DNA of 64,000 bases from Geosporobacter ferrireducens (GTDB lineage: Bacteria > Bacillota > Clostridia > Peptostreptococcales > Thermotaleaceae), in assembly GCF_001750685.1 (NCBI RefSeq), contig NZ_CP017269.1:1839416-1903415 (forward strand), written 5' to 3'. The notes below the pieces were generated by a model. That model made no database searches. It saw only the letters and a program-made list of their open reading frames with translations, and was not told where the DNA came from. A program made the translations under genes and the position numbers. This document shows positions 46,148 to 53,346 of the stretch, piece by piece. How positions within the stretch are numbered: the stretch's first letter is position 1; every line of letters starts with the position of its first letter.

Positions 46148-46171
46148 GCCACCTGATTTTTCACAGGTGGC
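46148..46171 (-). terminator. terminator of the macA-two-component operon
   Basis: GCCACCTG / CAGGTGGC, 8-bp stem, 30 bases beyond the histidine kinase stop; only a modest T-tract follows on the minus strand. Confidence 0.65.
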
Positions 46172-46200: not shown

Positions 46201-47661
46201 TTAAATTAATTCGGGGCTGGGCATTTCTATCCAAACCACAGTTCCCTTATTTACTTCACTTTCTATTCCAAATGGAAATTTATGGGCTTGCAGTATGTTT
46301 TTCACGATTGCCATCCCTAGCCCCGTACCGCTGCTGTCTCGCTTTCTTGATTTATCTACCTTGTAGAATCTATCCCATATATACGGCAAGTCTTCTTTAG
46401 GAATTCCTTTTCCATTATCAATAACCTCAACCCGCATCACATCATCCTTCTCACAGATTTTGATGATTATTCTTCCATGATTATAAGAATGGTGGATCGC
46501 ATTATCGATAATATTGTAGAAAACTTGATAGATTTTATTCTTGTCTGCATAGATCAGAAGATTTTGACTTTCCATTTCTAAAACAATCTCAATATCATTT
46601 TTTGATGCAAAATAAGAGAGTTTCTCAATAATATAATCTAAAATTTCTTGTAATGAAAATTTTTCATATACTAAATCTGAGTATCCGGATTCCATTTTTG
46701 ATAAATAGAGAATATCTTCCACCATATTATTTAACCGGTCAGATTCATCGATAATTACTTGGAGGTATTGTTCTTTATCCTCTGCATCGAAATTATCCAC
46801 ATCCTTTACCACCTCAGCATAAGCTTTGATTAAACTAATAGGCGTCTTTAGCTCGTGAGACACATTGGCAATAAAGTCTTTTCTCAGTTGTTCAATTTTA
46901 TCCAGCTGTCTTGCCAAATCATTAATGGTTTCCCCCAACACTCCGATTTCATCATTGGAGGAATGGAGGATCTCTACTGAAAAATCTCCCTTGGCGATCC
47001 GCTTTGAAGCATCAATAATATTCACAATGGGCTTAGCAAAAAACTTCGCCAGCGACAAAGCTAATACAGTCCCTATACACAATGAAAAAATCGTAATAAT
47101 GGATAATTGTTTTTTCAGAATACTTGTAGCTTCTTCGATCGGTGCTAAAGCTGTGAAGATCACAACATTTCCCACCAGTTCCTCTGCCCGAAAAACAGGC
47201 ACACCTACAATTACAGACCCTTCCGGGGATCTAGAATGCATTTTTTGAATCACAAAAGGCTCTCCCTGTGCAATATAGCGCTCGATTGTCTTATCACCCA
47301 AAACCGGGGCAAGGAATCTCCGGTCATTTTTATCTGGTTCTCTATTATTGATAAAGATGCGGCCAGGAGTATTTACAAATAAGATATCCTTCTTTTTATC
47401 AACAATCATAACAATCGCATTAATAGAAGTTGTAAAGTGCTGAATCTCTTCCAGCATTTCCTGAGATATTGCGCTGCTATCATCAGATTCCAGCATCAAT
47501 GACCTTAGCTTTTGTGCTTCATTCAGCAGAATGCTTTTTCTTTCCCTAATATAAAATTCATTTAAAAAACTAATCTGAAACAACCAAATGATTAATAATA
47601 TGAGCAATACTACAGCCGTAATACCGAACCATAATTTACTCAGTATGCTTTTCATTTTCAT
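46201..47661 (-). CDS. sensor histidine kinase
   Basis: A 486-residue membrane kinase. ATG 47661 overlaps the regulator gene by 26 bases and has AAGGTGGG upstream. Helices at about 10-31 and 186-206 enclose an extracytoplasmic sensor domain of roughly 150 residues; HAMP follows (207-258, KPIVNIIDASKRIAKGDFSV), then His269 in ANVSHELKTPISL and the ATPase domain (IIDNAIHHS; GTGLGMAIVKNIL). Co-operonic with the regulator, exporter and lipoprotein, so it likely senses an envelope or antimicrobial signal. Confidence 0.95.
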   Translation of the reverse strand: MKMKSILSKLWFGITAVVLLILLIIWLFQISFLNEFYIRERKSILLNEAQKLRSLMLESDDSSAISQEMLEEIQHFTTSINAIVMIVDKKKDILFVNTPGRIFINNREPDKNDRRFLAPVLGDKTIERYIAQGEPFVIQKMHSRSPEGSVIVGVPVFRAEELVGNVVIFTALAPIEEATSILKKQLSIITIFSLCIGTVLALSLAKFFAKPIVNIIDASKRIAKGDFSVEILHSSNDEIGVLGETINDLARQLDKIEQLRKDFIANVSHELKTPISLIKAYAEVVKDVDNFDAEDKEQYLQVIIDESDRLNNMVEDILYLSKMESGYSDLVYEKFSLQEILDYIIEKLSYFASKNDIEIVLEMESQNLLIYADKNKIYQVFYNIIDNAIHHSYNHGRIIIKICEKDDVMRVEVIDNGKGIPKEDLPYIWDRFYKVDKSRKRDSSGTGLGMAIVKNILQAHKFPFGIESEVNKGTVVWIEMPSPELI

Positions 47662-48394: not shown

Positions 48395-49078
48395 CTATTC
48401 TTCAACAATCTTTCCATCTTTTACACGAACAATCCTTTTTGCCTCTTTTGCTACACCTAAATCATGGGTAATCATTACGATCGTATTTCCTTCCCTGCTT
48501 AATTCCGAAAACATATCAATTATTTCTCTGCCTGTTTTTGAATCAAGTGCTCCCGTTGGCTCATCAGCCAATAATAATCTGGGTTCACCGGAAAGAGCCC
48601 GGGCAATGGATACTCTCTGCTGCTCCCCGCCCGATAATTCCAGAGGTTTATGCTTCATTCTGCCGCCTAATCCAACCTTTTCTAATAGCAGCGTTGCTCT
48701 TTCATATGCCTTTTCTTTATTTATACCGCGAAGAAGGAGTGGAAATGCTACATTATGAATCGCTGTATATTTAGGCAGAAGATTAAATCTTTGAAAAATA
48801 AATCCAATTTCCCGGTTTCGAACATGGGCCAGTTCATCATCGTTTCTCGCTTTAATGTTCTGTCCCCCTAGTATGTATTCCCCAGAGTCTGCCACATCAA
48901 TGCATCCAATGATATTCATAAGCGTTGATTTTCCCGAACCGGAAGGCCCTAATACGGCAACAAATTCTCCTGCTGTCACTTCTAAAGATACTTCTTTCAG
49001 TACTGTCAATTTATTTTTACCCAGCTTGTAGGATTTGACAATATCCTTCATATAAATTATATTATTCTCCATATCCAT
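48395..49078 (-). CDS. MacB-type ABC transporter ATP-binding protein
   Basis: A 227-residue ATPase. Walker A GPSGSGKST (near 43), signature LSGGEQQRVSIARAL (near 143), Walker B RLLLADEPTGALD and the H-loop MITHDLG are all present. The sequence is of the LolD/MacB mechanotransmission type, which works with the FtsX-like permease encoded upstream. It sits 5 bases after the lipoprotein gene and before the two-component genes. In E. coli MacB the ATPase and permease are one chain; here they are separate. Confidence 0.94.
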   Translation of the reverse strand: MDMENNIIYMKDIVKSYKLGKNKLTVLKEVSLEVTAGEFVAVLGPSGSGKSTLMNIIGCIDVADSGEYILGGQNIKARNDDELAHVRNREIGFIFQRFNLLPKYTAIHNVAFPLLLRGINKEKAYERATLLLEKVGLGGRMKHKPLELSGGEQQRVSIARALSGEPRLLLADEPTGALDSKTGREIIDMFSELSREGNTIVMITHDLGVAKEAKRIVRVKDGKIVEE

Positions 49079-49083
49079 ATCTT

Positions 49084-49689
49084 CTACCTTCCCTGCATCA
49101 CACGAACCTGGGTAATCATTTCTTTATCATTTTGATCTAGCCAGATTTGCATTATCATTCCTTGATAAATATCTGCCAGATCCAGTTCTTTCTGTGTGTT
49201 TTGGCCAATCGTCATAATTGGAACCCCCACAGGAATTAAGATTGTTTTCGTTTCTCCTGTAAGGTTAAGCTCTCTATTGGTTCTCTGCTGCCCGCCACCG
49301 CCGGGTCCTTGCATTCCAGGTGCAGCGCCGCCAGCAGGCATTCCACCAGCAGGCATTCCACTTCCACCACTTGCCTGGCGCTCGGGTGTTTGCTGTGCGG
49401 TACTGCCTTGCTGTGCTCCATTGCCTCTTTCCGGCATCTCCATCAATTCCAGTACAACTTCATTTCCTACAATACTCTTTACCCGTCCACTTATATCTGC
49501 TCTTTGGAATTCCTGCCTGCCATTATTATTCTGCCCATTACTGCCTTGCTGATTTGCTGCCTGCTGACTTTGTGTCTCATTATTGTCCTGTGTAGGTTTA
49601 TCCACTGCTGCATCCGTTTTATTGCACGCAGAAAGCAATAAAGAAATCCCGATAATCCCTGTAATCATAAAAACATATTTATTCTTCAT
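49084..49689 (-). CDS. low-complexity lipoprotein within the MacAB operon
   Basis: A 201-residue lipoprotein: signal ITGIIGISLLLSAC with lipobox Cys, then a Gln/Asn-rich linker, an OB-like strand part (ISGRVKSIVGNEVVLELMEM), a Gly/Pro/Met run with the repeat GMPAGGMPAGG, and a C-terminal part (TKTILIPVGVPIMTIGQN). AAGGAGTCG is upstream. It lies between the permease and ATPase genes of the exporter, so it probably works with them outside the membrane, but no activity is known. Confidence 0.75.
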   Translation of the reverse strand: MKNKYVFMITGIIGISLLLSACNKTDAAVDKPTQDNNETQSQQAANQQGSNGQNNNGRQEFQRADISGRVKSIVGNEVVLELMEMPERGNGAQQGSTAQQTPERQASGGSGMPAGGMPAGGAAPGMQGPGGGGQQRTNRELNLTGETKTILIPVGVPIMTIGQNTQKELDLADIYQGMIMQIWLDQNDKEMITQVRVMQGR

Positions 49690-49752: not shown

Positions 49753-50943
49753 TTATTCATAATTTAGCGCATCAATTGGCTTTAGCGCTGCAGCCCTGGA
49801 AGCGGGATAATATCCAAAAAAGGTTCCTATCCCCACGGAGAATCCAAATGCAAGCAGGTAGGCAAATGTTGTAGGGATGGCTCTAACTTGAAAGTAATTC
49901 ATAACCGGCATTGCCAGAATGCTGCCTAGTATACCCAATACGCCTCCTACTGCACTGATGATAATCGCTTCTAACAAAAACATCAGTAATATATCCTTTT
50001 TTCTTGCCCCGATGGCTTTTAAAATTCCGATTTCTTTGGTTCTTTCTTTTACAGAAACAAACAATACATTCATAATCCCAATACCGCCAACTACCAATAC
50101 TACCACAGCTACTGCAAGAAGCATCAATGTCATGGTTCGGGCTGAATTCTTTGCAGACTGCAGCCTGTTTCCTGCGTCAACAATCCTGAATTGATCACTC
50201 CGGTTACGATATACCTCTTGTAATACGAGATTGATTTCCTCAATGGCTGATTCTACATGATTGATATCCTTTGCCAAGGCAATGATGCTGGGTCTTGCGA
50301 ATCTCCCTACTATGTATTTTTCTGCCACTTTATAGGGTACAAATACTGCACTGTCAGGAGAAATCCCCCCCATTGAAGAATCTCCCATGCGCTTTAAAAT
50401 ACCCGTAACTTCATACCGTCTTCCAAATATGGTTATCCTCGCACCTATTGCATCTCTGATTTCATCTCCGAAGAGCTCCTGTGCAATATCTGAACCGATA
50501 ACAGCTACCCGCTCTGCATCTTCATTCTGCTCTGCAGTAATAAACTCTCCATAGGCTAATTCCAGATTGTTAATCGTTTTTAAATCTTCCGCAACACCCC
50601 CTATGGAGGCTGAAGCTGAAGTGGTTGAATAGCTAACGTCACCCCTGCTGGCAAGAATCATGGAGATATTTTTAATGGAAGGGGCTTCGACCCTAATCTT
50701 TTCTGCCAACTCCGAAGTTAATCTTTCTGTAGACCGTGCGCCAAAGTTGGCCATAATTTGAAGCGTACCTACATTTAAACTCTTAAACTGTTCTTCTACA
50801 CTGGCTTGACTGCCGTTTCCAATAGAAATAACCACGACAATCGTCAATGCCCCAACAATAATTCCTAAGGTGGTAAGGAAAACTTTCGTTTTATTTCCTT
50901 GAATATTCATAAAAACCGCTCTGAGAATTTCAATTAAACTCAT
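49753..50943 (-). CDS. MacB-like ABC permease (FtsX family)
   Basis: A 396-residue permease with four helices. ATG 50943 is chosen (TAGGTG 6 bases upstream); GTG 50952 is in the ribosome site. Helix 1 is TTLGIIVGALTIVVVISIGN, followed by a large extracytoplasmic MacB core (residues 45-270), then three helices in the FtsX pattern (VGGIGIMNVLFVSVKERTKE; IGILKAIGARKKDILLMFLL). Such permeases do not carry substrate through themselves but drive an outside adaptor, here MacA-like, by mechanotransmission. Confidence 0.94.
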   Translation of the reverse strand: MSLIEILRAVFMNIQGNKTKVFLTTLGIIVGALTIVVVISIGNGSQASVEEQFKSLNVGTLQIMANFGARSTERLTSELAEKIRVEAPSIKNISMILASRGDVSYSTTSASASIGGVAEDLKTINNLELAYGEFITAEQNEDAERVAVIGSDIAQELFGDEIRDAIGARITIFGRRYEVTGILKRMGDSSMGGISPDSAVFVPYKVAEKYIVGRFARPSIIALAKDINHVESAIEEINLVLQEVYRNRSDQFRIVDAGNRLQSAKNSARTMTLMLLAVAVVVLVVGGIGIMNVLFVSVKERTKEIGILKAIGARKKDILLMFLLEAIIISAVGGVLGILGSILAMPVMNYFQVRAIPTTFAYLLAFGFSVGIGTFFGYYPASRAAALKPIDALNYE

Positions 50944-50958
50944 CTGCTTCACCTACGC

Positions 50959-52203
50959 TTATTTCTTATTTTCTATCAATACTACTTCTCCTACATTTAA
51001 GCCTTCCGTTATTTCAACATTTTTCCCATCGGTTAATCCTGTCTTAATGTTTCTGCTCTCTATATTTCCATTCTGTGTTTTCACTTTTACGGTTTGCTTT
51101 CCATCTACCATTTTCACAGCTTTATTTGGAATAATCAATACATCTTTACGCTGTTTCAGTATAAAGGATACAGAACATGTCATGCCGGATTTGATTTGAT
51201 CGAAGCCGCTATCCAGTTCAATCTTAACATCATAGGTAACTAAACTGTTTTGATCTACCTTGTGGAGGGATGCAATAGATATTACCTTTCCTGTGAAAAT
51301 TTGTCTCTCCATTGCCTCAAATGTAACCTCTACCGTTTGCCCAACCGCTACATTCGATAAATCCAATTCAGAAACAGGGACAATTACCTCAATCTTTTTG
51401 GCATCAGATACGACTAAAAAATGAGTGGTATCTGCTGTAATTTCTCCAGAACTGTTTGGCGTTGTAATATTCTCCCCTGGTTTATAGGCAACATTCAGTA
51501 CCTTAGCATTTACATCGGAGCGCAGGACTGTATTATTCAGCTCATCCTGGGCTGTTTCCAGTGTAATTTTAGCCGTTTCCACGTTTGCTTTTTCCAGTTC
51601 TAAATCCAGATCTGAGTTTAATAAGACATTATACCTTTCCTGCTGGACTGTGTAGGCAGCTTTCGCGCTCTCATAGGACATTTTTTTCAATTCCAGCTCT
51701 TGCTTGGAATAATAATTTGTCATCTCCAACATAGGCAAATATTCCATTTCAATTTGATCCAGCTTCGCTTTTAAATCTTCTAGCTGCTGCTTCTCATTTA
51801 CAAGAGACAAATTGGTATTCTGTTTTTTCTGCTCTAAATTCAGCACAGCTCTGTCATAGTTTATTTGGGCCGTTTTTAGTTTTTTTATGTATTCTGAATC
51901 ATCCAACTTCGCTAATATTTGTCCTGACTGTATCTCGTCATCTTCCTTTACATATAATTCCTTAAGCTTTCCCGATAAGTTAAAATTCAGATTTACCGTT
52001 GGAATTCTAGACCTCCCGTCCCCTGCAAACGCAATGGTCAAATCACCTCTTCTTACACTTTCTTCTGTTACTGAAACGGTTTCTCCCGATGCTGCAGGTG
52101 TCGTTTTATCAAGCATTTTAAAGCCATAGAATCCACCGCCTGCTAAAATGGAAAGAATCATTCCTATTCTAATAACCTTGTTTTGAAATATTTTTTTCAG
52201 CAA
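50959..52203 (-). CDS. MacA-like adaptor protein
   Basis: A 414-residue membrane fusion protein. Start TTG 52203 (LKKIFQNKVIRIGMILSILA) with AAAAGGAGG 9 bases upstream. An N-terminal helix anchors it; lipoyl-like parts (GKLKELYVKEDDEIQSGQIL; VLRSDVNAKVLNVAYKPG) flank a long coiled coil (about 95-185), followed by a beta-barrel and a membrane-proximal domain (KAVKMVDGKQTVKVKTQNGN). First gene of the exporter/two-component operon, 6-16 bases before the permease. Promoter with direct repeats upstream. Confidence 0.93.
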   Translation of the reverse strand: MLKKIFQNKVIRIGMILSILAGGGFYGFKMLDKTTPAASGETVSVTEESVRRGDLTIAFAGDGRSRIPTVNLNFNLSGKLKELYVKEDDEIQSGQILAKLDDSEYIKKLKTAQINYDRAVLNLEQKKQNTNLSLVNEKQQLEDLKAKLDQIEMEYLPMLEMTNYYSKQELELKKMSYESAKAAYTVQQERYNVLLNSDLDLELEKANVETAKITLETAQDELNNTVLRSDVNAKVLNVAYKPGENITTPNSSGEITADTTHFLVVSDAKKIEVIVPVSELDLSNVAVGQTVEVTFEAMERQIFTGKVISIASLHKVDQNSLVTYDVKIELDSGFDQIKSGMTCSVSFILKQRKDVLIIPNKAVKMVDGKQTVKVKTQNGNIESRNIKTGLTDGKNVEITEGLNVGEVVLIENKK

Positions 52204-52250: not shown

Positions 52251-52283
52251 ATTATATTGCTTAATTGTGATGAATTTGTGATG
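52251..52283 (-). promoter_or_regulatory. macA promoter with tandem response-regulator boxes
   Basis: Plus-strand ATTGTGATG (52264-52272) and TTTGTGATG (52275-52283) are direct repeats 11 bases apart. On the minus strand they end 7 bases before TATAAT (52256-52251), where a -35 box should be but is not recognisable. The same arrangement occurs at 53314-53346. Confidence 0.65.
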
Positions 52284-52342
52284 ACATTAGCAAATCTTTA
52301 TGAATTCTGGATTTTCATATCCACTTTTACTGAAAAAATTTG

Positions 52343-52365
52343 AGCCCTCGCAATATGCAAGGGCT
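52343..52365 (-). terminator. terminator of the secreted repeat-protein gene
   Basis: AGCCCT-C-GC / GC-A-AGGGCT with a short loop; on the minus strand the mismatch becomes a G-U pair and the stem is followed by CAAATTTTTT. Confidence 0.7.
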
Positions 52366-52454
52366 TCTTATTATTTACATTTACTATTTTTTAGATTGTT
52401 TTTCTGTAGCACTAGGGGGTGCTTTCGGCAATTATTTATTTCTACACTTCAGGA

Positions 52455-53264
52455 TTAAGCATCGTTCTTTTCTTTAGACGGTCTTGTCTTTAATGCTTTT
52501 AAGTTCTCTGCTTCCTCTTTGGTGAGTATACCATCCTCTACCAATTGGTCAAAGATATTTTTTCGCTCTATTTTATTTTCTTCAAAATATTTCTGTCTCT
52601 CTTCCTTCGTCATGTTTTTCAGCTCTTCAAACTGTGCCTTTTTCGCTTCTGCTTTTTTCTCAAAATATGCCTTTAAAGCTTCAGCCTTTTCCTCTGTTAG
52701 CTTACCTTCTTCTACAAGCTTGCCAATAAGCACGGACATGTCTTTTCCATAGCCTCTCTTGCCTAGACCTTGCGGCATCATTTCTTTCATTTTCGCTTTT
52801 ATTTGTTCTTCCTGAGCTTCTGTAATTACGCCATCTTTAACCAATTGCTCTATGAAATCGACTCTCTCTGTTTTATTCGCTTTATTTTCCTCAAAATATT
52901 TTTGGCGCTCTTCCTCGGTCAAATCTTTTATTTTTTCAAATTCTGCCTTTTTTGCTTCCATTTTTTCTTCAAGATATTTTTTTACTTCCTCAACCTTTTC
53001 TTTTGAAAGGGTTCCTTCTTCAGCAAGCTTGTCTAGAACTGCCTCCAAGCCTTTTCCTGGTACTTGACTCTTTAAAGCAAAACCGTTCTCTTTTTTAAGT
53101 TCACTTCCTGCCTTAAATTTCTGCATGATCTTTGTGTTTTTTTCAGCGGCTGCATCGGCAGTTCCCTCTGTCTCTTTTGCAAATACAGCACCTCCCATTG
53201 TAAACATCATGCTGCTGACCAATACACCAGAAAGCATTTTCTTCATGAATAGTCTTTTCTCCAT
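52455..53264 (-). CDS. secreted charged helical-repeat protein (DUF2680-like)
   Basis: A 269-residue exported protein. ATG 53264 has GAAGGAGGG upstream. Signal MKKMLSGVLVSSMMFTMGGA ends AVFA-KE. The mature part is Lys/Glu-rich and holds an internal duplication: KLAEEGTLSKEKVEEVKKYL with EERQKYFEENK and QLVKDGVITEAQEEQIKAKM (about 75-165), repeated as KLVEEGKLTEEKAEALKAYF, EERQKYFEENK and QLVEDGILTKEEAENLKAL (185-260). The D-G-V-I-T-x-E-Q units resemble DUF2680/YckD. It shares promoter boxes with the exporter operon, suggesting a role in the same envelope response. Confidence 0.8.
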   Translation of the reverse strand: MEKRLFMKKMLSGVLVSSMMFTMGGAVFAKETEGTADAAAEKNTKIMQKFKAGSELKKENGFALKSQVPGKGLEAVLDKLAEEGTLSKEKVEEVKKYLEEKMEAKKAEFEKIKDLTEEERQKYFEENKANKTERVDFIEQLVKDGVITEAQEEQIKAKMKEMMPQGLGKRGYGKDMSVLIGKLVEEGKLTEEKAEALKAYFEKKAEAKKAQFEELKNMTKEERQKYFEENKIERKNIFDQLVEDGILTKEEAENLKALKTRPSKEKNDA

Positions 53265-53313
53265 TGCTATTCTCCCTCCTTCAAAATTTATTGTCATTCG
53301 TTCTGACAGTACT

Positions 53314-53346
53314 ATTATGTACAAACTTTGTGAGGGTTTTGTGAGG
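53314..53346 (-). promoter_or_regulatory. promoter with tandem response-regulator boxes
   Basis: Plus-strand TTTGTGAGG at 53327-53335 and again at 53338-53346: direct repeats 11 bases apart, ending 7 bases before CATAAT (53319-53314) read on the minus strand. Spacing and period are identical to the macA promoter. Confidence 0.65.

Follow-up and report, generated by a model that had tools for sequence, protein, structure and literature searches.

Tandem TCACAA repeats shared by the promoters of a MacAB-type exporter operon and of a gene for a secreted DUF2680 protein in Geosporobacter ferrireducens, and their probable control by an operon-encoded PhoB-type regulator

Known tandem operators and the two promoters of the window

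The pho box, which is the operator of PhoB in Escherichia coli, stands in for the -35 element. In the Cpx and Bae envelope responses of Gram-negative bacteria, with CpxP and Spy, efflux and a small helical protein that is exported are under the joint control of a two-component system. The likeness of these responses to the system presented here is an analogy of how they work.

Tandem binding as a dimer has been described for regulators of the OmpR/PhoB family (PMC4832192, PMC4415409). The PhoP box of Mycobacterium tuberculosis, TCACAGC-N4-TCACAGC, shares with the box of this study the TCACA core and the arrangement as a head-to-tail direct repeat with a period of 11 bp, and PhoP, a member of the OmpR/PhoB family like the regulator found here, reads its motif with the recognition helix (PMC4832192). 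The two systems differ in the bases following TCACA and in the helix residues, and the targets as well as the organism are unrelated. The pho box of E. coli, CTGTCAT-N4-CTGTCAT, likewise consists of two 11-bp repeats read by a regulator of this family, but it carries a G before TCA at the place of A or C, and it is connected to phosphate genes and not to an exporter and a secreted protein (PMC4415409 and PMC4832192). The third system, RR_1586 of Clostridioides difficile, is a clostridial OmpR-family regulator with a direct repeat of an 11-bp motif, and its regulon was likewise predicted by comparative genomics; it differs by a TTAAG-type motif and by its targets, which are phosphate and polyamine transport as well as sporulation genes (PMC6222199).

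In the open-licence literature, no report of the box described below or of regulated DUF2680 genes was found, and what appears to be new is that, throughout an order, this clade of regulators is linked to exporters of the MacA type and to DUF2680 proteins.

The window, a stretch of 64,000 nucleotides from the genome of G. ferrireducens (contig NZ_CP017269.1), contains the repeats ATTGTGATGAATTTGTGATG at 52264-52283 and TTTGTGAGGGTTTTGTGAGG at 53327-53346, as read on the plus strand. Both downstream genes, macA and a gene coding for a secreted DUF2680 protein, are located on the minus strand (Table 1). Read on this strand, the macA promoter has the form CATCACAAA-TT-CATCACAAT-N7-TATAAT and the promoter of the secreted protein the form CCTCACAAA-AC-CCTCACAAA-N7-CATAAT, with TCACAA-N5-TCACAA-N8-(T/C)ATAAT as the form common to both. 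All four half-sites carry A or C before TCACA, and the head-to-tail direct repeat with its period of 11 and the 7-base gap to the -10 is exact in both promoters. A scan for the sigma-70 consensus, which needs a -35 element, called no promoter at either box, and the best TTGACA match at a spacing of 15-19 bp averages 2.0 of 6 positions compared to 3.0 in shuffled spacers. The repeats, their period, the gap to the -10 and the lack of a -35 had been described in a sequence-only reading of this DNA and were all borne out by the sequence and the scans. Its further proposal of a PhoB/OmpR-type tandem box, which is common to both promoters and replaces the -35, is supported by this lack and by the fixed register of box and -10 in the orthologues described below.

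A palindromic operator as for CRP/FNR, Rex or similar regulators, considered because the repeats resemble the TGTGA/TCACA motifs of these regulators, was ruled out, since the repeats are direct and not inverted. The motif of ResD is TTTGTGAAT.

Table 1. Features of the two promoters and of the exporter operon in the window.
Feature	Position	Strand	Remarks
DUF2680-gene extra TCACAA	53372..53377	-	precedes the first DUF2680 half-site by 33 bp (3 x 11)
DUF2680-gene promoter box	53314..53344	-	TCACAA 53344-53339 and 53333-53328, -10 CATAAT 53319-53314; Geosporobacter subterraneus has the same core
Secreted DUF2680 protein, 269 aa	52455..53264	-	Pfam DUF2680; signal peptide-like start (by eye); two Lys/Glu-rich repeats of about 90 aa
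Terminator-like stem, 10 pairs	52343..52365	-	separates the DUF2680 gene from the macA promoter
Distal half-site TCATAA	52298..52303	-	precedes the first macA half-site by exactly 22 bp
macA promoter box	52251..52281	-	TCACAA 52281-52276 and 52270-52265, -10 TATAAT 52256-52251; kept in 13/13 macA orthologues, own included
MacA-like membrane-fusion (HlyD-type) adaptor, TTG start	50959..52203	-	Pfam HlyD_D23 and Biotin_lipoyl_2 above cut-off
MacB-like permease	49753..50952	-	Pfam MacB_PCD and FtsX
Putative lipoprotein, conserved in operon	49084..49689	-	lipobox-like LLLSAC (by eye)
ABC ATPase, separate from permease	48395..49078	-	Pfam ABC_tran
PhoB/OmpR-type response regulator P0001	47636..48340	-	recognition helix RTVDTHIKQLREK; Pfam Response_reg and Trans_reg_C; Gln clade
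Sensor histidine kinase with HAMP domain	46201..47661	-	Pfam HisKA, HATPase_c, HAMP
Terminator-like stem after kinase gene	46148..46171	-	stem prediction; probable operon end

The genes for MacA, MacB, the lipoprotein, the ATPase, the response regulator and the kinase form an apparent operon on the minus strand (52203-46201), which is preceded by the DUF2680 gene and a stem; a single further stem of the terminator type, a weaker one, falls within the kinase gene (47062-47042). Homologues of the lipoprotein were found in 11 of the 31 loci of relatives that were compared. With an HlyD-type adaptor, a permease with MacB_PCD and FtsX domains and an ABC ATPase (Pfam), the exporter is MacAB-like in the wide sense. 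The strict equivalogs for macrolide MacAB were rejected, the scores being 63.7 against 342 for MacA as well as 183.9 (permease) and 258.7 (ATPase) against 966 for MacB, and the ATPase is encoded by a separate gene and is not fused to the permease.

The secreted protein, previously read as DUF2680-like, turned out to be a full member of DUF2680 (PF10925) with 49.4 bits at a gathering cut-off of 25. DUF2680 is a family of unknown function, for which the box, the likely regulator and the partner exporter provide a testable regulatory context. The AlphaFold2 model, built with nine sequences, is all-helical and of low confidence (pLDDT 61.8, pTM 0.33); a Foldseek search with it returned 13 matches, none at E 0.001 or better. 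One PDB entry matches the protein by sequence (8fjg, E 0.0014), and the CpxP/Spy (LTXXQ) family is not among its eight Pfam matches at E 0.01.

Conservation of the box upstream of macA and DUF2680 genes

The MacA search covered 148 genomes, the own genome included, and identified 13 macA orthologues, consisting of 11 full-length genes of relatives with at least 46% identity, a fragment in genome G003, and the macA of the window. The box is present before all 13, some 30-100 bases upstream of the start codon, and its register to the -10 is fixed in every case. When each box in turn is left out and scored by a matrix trained on the twelve remaining ones, the values are 21.0-31.8, compared to 6.2-11.8 for the best of 200 shuffles per region. 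In addition, TCAYA is located exactly 22 bp upstream of the box in 10 of the 13 promoters; within the 30 bases scanned, only one other offset carries TCAYA, and this in a single promoter. Conservation in orthologous promoters had been named in the sequence-only reading as a check of its proposal, and the repeats were found to be kept.

A further macA orthologue, which was held out of the matrix and met twice as the same site (L173 and L125, from two collections and perhaps from the same organism), has a box with a score of 26.6. A macA homologue with 36% identity (L174) has no box. Among 14 more distant MacA homologues that were scored, the value of 17 is reached by L039, L040, L041 and L052 and missed by the ten others, and none of the scored homologues from other phyla (L128-L141) reaches this value. 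A set of 25 loci was collected for their similarity to MacA (L039-L056 except L045, and L120-L127), and 16 of their 157 ORF upstream regions have a score of at least 17. Twelve are located before MacA-like genes, seven of them training members of the matrix, three before DUF2680-like genes and one before an ORF of 144 amino acids.

In a comparison of the window with the same-genus genome G001 (G. subterraneus), the box is conserved together with the -10 and the near flanks, whereas much of the other intergenic DNA drifts. The macA box of G001 carries ACCCTCACAAA, a repeat which is also found in DUF2680 boxes, and may be regarded as a bridge between the two kinds of box.

The macA gene of G003 (L118:3169-5774, G003:C1) is cut after 110 codons and its box is intact; the ORFs following the cut look, by eye, like an inserted transposon.

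Using the matrix trained on macA promoters, the DUF2680 promoter is the sole other match in the window (score 24.6). At a threshold of 17, the two promoters are the only window matches, and none were obtained in 619 kb of background strands. A DUF2680 alignment was searched against 16 chosen genomes, comprising the own genome, 12 with macA, and G005, G011 and G012. Boxed close homologues with a score of at least 17 were found in 12 of these 16, namely G000, G001, G003, G005, G009, G010, G011, G012, G013, G014, G015 and G067, a count for which the weaker matches in those genomes were examined in part. Their alignment E values are 2e-26 or better, except for one of the three genes of G013 (E 1.9e-20). 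Among the others, G056 gave no match to the alignment, the two matches fetched from G077 have no box, the two DUF2680 genes of G081, which lie behind transporter genes, score -7.4 and 12.8, and a weak match in G042 (E 1.3e-5) scores 18.1 but has G before TCACA, i.e., a G-type box.

In G005 and G011, the boxed DUF2680 gene is divergent from a regulator which is 63% and 65% identical to that of the window and has the same helix; no macA orthologue was found in these two genomes, their best MacA matches being 26-28% identical. A or C precedes TCACA in 27 of the 28 half-sites of 14 boxed DUF2680-like genes, three of which were read directly from the sequence (C and C in G000, C and C in G001, A and A in G067); the box of G009 has T at one half-site. 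The extra TCACAA upstream of the DUF2680 box is found at the same place in G001, and not in G003 and G010.

Of 42 DUF2680 Pfam matches, 12 have a site with at most one mismatch in the 600 bp preceding them on their own strand, and 30 have none. Thirty loci (about 3 kb each) near DUF2680 Pfam matches were compared for the presence of a regulator, which is found in eight, compared to 4 of 41 hand-picked control loci averaging about 7 kb, so the closeness of two-component genes to DUF2680 genes is suggestive only. The own genome has a second DUF2680 gene (C1:4345990), which is accompanied by a divergent regulator of another clade. Its box is of a related kind, in which each half-site is preceded by T and the second one reads CCACA.

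A further DUF2680 paralogue of the own genome (G000:C1:97672-98478, L331) has a divergently oriented regulator beside it, the helix of which contains Arg. With the macA matrix, no box above background was found for this gene.

The regulator, its predicted action and the alternatives

P0001 is a member of the OmpR/PhoB family with a receiver domain (PF00072, 114.9 bits) and a winged-helix domain (Trans_reg_C, PF00486, 99.6 bits). An identity as the phosphate regulator PhoB was rejected, since its scores are below both NCBIfam PhoB cut-offs (233.2 against 270 and 228.5 against 296.2), and so was that of a pst-linked PhoB, the regulator (370530-371213) near pstB (367748-368488) being a different gene.

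In a tree of 76 regulator rows, from which the helix columns had been left out, P0001 belongs to a 15-row clade with a support of 100/94, in which P0001 itself is represented a second time. All of these rows have Gln at the position of R201 of PhoB, and the members of the clade are the regulators of macA and DUF2680 loci. This position presumably equals R201 of PhoB and Tyr220 of M. tuberculosis PhoP, as aligned by eye. Tyr220 contacts bases towards the 5' end of TCACAGC (PMC4832192). The own genome contains 39 regulator matches at E 1e-25; among the 30 that were fetched, only the window regulator has Gln, and none of the promoters of the 29 others reaches a score of 17.

The helix residue was compared with the base before the second TCACA in 39 distinct pairs, for which a regulator was combined with every site no more than 6 kb away in its fetched locus; a few of them are probably not cognate, e.g., that of the second regulator of L113. 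Arg occurs with G in 14 of 15 pairs, Gln with A or C in 9 of 9, Met with A in 4 of 4 and Asn with T in 4 of 6. Among the helix positions tried, the R201 position gives the highest shuffle z-scores with the base before TCACA (10.7 and 10.6, the next being 10.3); the raw mutual information of a neighbouring position is slightly higher (1.32 against 1.30). Exceptions are L202, which has Arg with T, the own regulator adjacent to htrA, which has Arg while the box before htrA has T, and the single T half-site of G009. Because the clades move together, leaving one or two independent contrasts on supported branches and hence no possible significance, the covariation is consistent with this assignment and does not serve as independent proof. 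The half-site variants and the matching helix residues are natural material for a specificity code in a very large response-regulator family.

Based on these comparisons, the two repeats are probably operators of one regulon, in which the operon-encoded PhoB-type regulator co-controls the MacAB-type exporter and the DUF2680 protein; co-regulation of both promoters by a PhoB-like regulator is well supported. The regulator would be phosphorylated by the neighbouring kinase, possibly upon an extracytoplasmic signal, and is predicted to occupy the two TCACAA half-sites in tandem, in the form of a head-to-tail dimer; at macA, a second dimer might perhaps be seated on the half-site located 22 bp further upstream. 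Once bound, it would sit at the place of the -35 and recruit RNA polymerase to the -10 seven bases downstream, so that the exporter operon and the secreted protein would be expressed together. The secreted protein could act as a chaperone, as a buffer or in feedback on the kinase, by analogy only with CpxP/Spy. The signal may be envelope stress, and the protein might serve as a sensor, a decoy or a shield, as suggested in the sequence-only reading.

This action would include positive feedback in G. ferrireducens, as the two-component genes lie within the operon, which is not the case in several relatives. In the window as well as in the relatives' loci L112, L114, L115, L118 and L119, they are placed behind the transporter genes in the same orientation, which would entail autoregulation there. 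In seven loci (L093, L106, L109, L110, L111, L113 and L116), the regulator gene is transcribed separately and the best score upstream of it is below 2 in every case, which suggests that the conserved part of the regulon is the exporter and the DUF2680 protein. From the earlier claim that the regulator controls its own operon, the shared box and the operon-encoded regulator as its likely binder were retained, whereas autoregulation through the box is not a conserved trait.

The boxes might instead belong to another PhoB-like regulator, such as the true phosphate regulator or another DUF2680-linked paralogue, with the neighbour as a bystander. The many regulators of the own genome would fit this, as would the fact that a TCACA core with an 11-bp period is common to several regulator clades in these genomes, the separately transcribed regulator genes without a box of their own, and the macA locus of G081 (L127), which has a box and no regulator match within the 17 kb covered. 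It is nevertheless unlikely, as the box variant with A or C before TCACA tracks the clade of the regulator, its helix residue is found in none of the 29 other own-genome regulators examined, the pstB-adjacent regulator is a different gene, and the orthologue directly adjoins the boxed DUF2680 gene in G005 and G011.

Alternatively, the regulator may bind the boxes and repress, or do both, and the shared control would be derepression. This would fit the overlap of the box with the -35 region, as a protein bound there can also obstruct the polymerase; PhoB is described as able to activate or repress depending on the position of the site (PMC10294691), and RR_1586 of C. difficile repressed reporters through direct repeats (PMC6222199). 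Such derepression is quite unlikely in view of the missing -35 and of the fixed register of box and -10, which is expected of an activator touching the polymerase. Activation of both promoters by P0001 is the preferred reading because of this box/-10 geometry.

Occurrence of the box in the own genome and in other genomes

Allowing up to three mismatches, the pattern of the sequence-only reading, which had been fitted to the two sites themselves, gives two matches in the window, and at least two in 4 of 100 dinucleotide shuffles; the match within the window is by itself only moderately unlikely. The exact form TCACAA-N5-TCACAA occurs three times in the 5.8-Mb genome, two of these being the window promoters. 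With one mismatch allowed, the own genome has no excess of tandem sites (26 compared to 28 for the reversed pattern), and a wider pattern with two mismatches gives 67 matches compared to 40 reversed, so that weak boxes in the own genome are mostly noise. The case beyond chance is made by the conservation in the orthologues, i.e., the 13 macA promoters and the held-out L173/L125. Across 146 genomes, the own included, TCACA-N6-TCACA-N9-TATAAT with one mismatch was found 149 times and the reversed pattern 10 times. Despite the shuffle result and the lack of an excess of one-mismatch tandems, a resemblance by chance or as a general promoter feature of AT-rich genomes is highly improbable, as it is contradicted by the conservation, by these 149 against 10 sites and by the identities of the targets, MacA-like and DUF2680 genes.

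Of the 149 sites, 141 were read, three own-genome sites being treated separately and five not fetched. An ORF starts within 300 bases of 103 sites, and 38 are without one. The 103 downstream proteins include 20 with DUF2680, 14 with Biotin_lipoyl_2 (MacA/HlyD-type adaptors) and 10 response regulators; the rest is mixed. As a tentative and somewhat doubtful generalization, DUF2680 proteins could be the regular product of a whole clan of two-component systems of the PhoB-like kind in this clostridial order, in which each clade (Q, R, N and M), with its own variant of the TCACA box, would drive its own DUF2680 protein, often together with a MacA-type exporter. This would make it a Gram-positive counterpart of Cpx-CpxP/Spy, with the secreted protein buffering or feeding back on the kinase.

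Several further boxes were observed. Locus L090 (G013:C37:17500-21413) contains three near-identical boxes within 1.2 kb, located before a PilZ-like gene (by eye), before a kinase-like gene and after another kinase-like gene. In L101, L105, L107, L229, L237, L248, L250 and L251, TGTCACA or CATCACA boxes go along with small exported-looking proteins of 115-158 amino acids, and an Arg-type regulator is close by in six of these eight loci.

The third exact box of the own genome (G000:C1:2590134-2590164, L057:3635) has A and C before its half-sites and a score of 24.9. It is located between a G5/3D-type gene and tatD, and its core is kept in G. subterraneus (L094:674 in G001, score 20.3). No gene was seen downstream of this box, which may be the promoter of a short RNA.

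The promoter design of the window recurs as a variant at G000:C1:2544466-2544507 (L058, L256), where TTCAYAA repeats and a TATAAT are located before an HtrA-like protease gene adjoining its own regulator and kinase.

Finally, four boxes of the type ATCTCCATA/ATCTCCACAT were found at G000:C1:1176602, 1181000, 1187713 and 1193179 (L277, L257, L278 and L279), within 17 kb around a regulator at 1189267. They have one or two mismatches, each being weak alone, and they precede an ORF of 11 codons as well as genes which, as named by eye, code for small membrane-like proteins and a radical-SAM-like protein. The four boxes perhaps constitute another two-component regulon.
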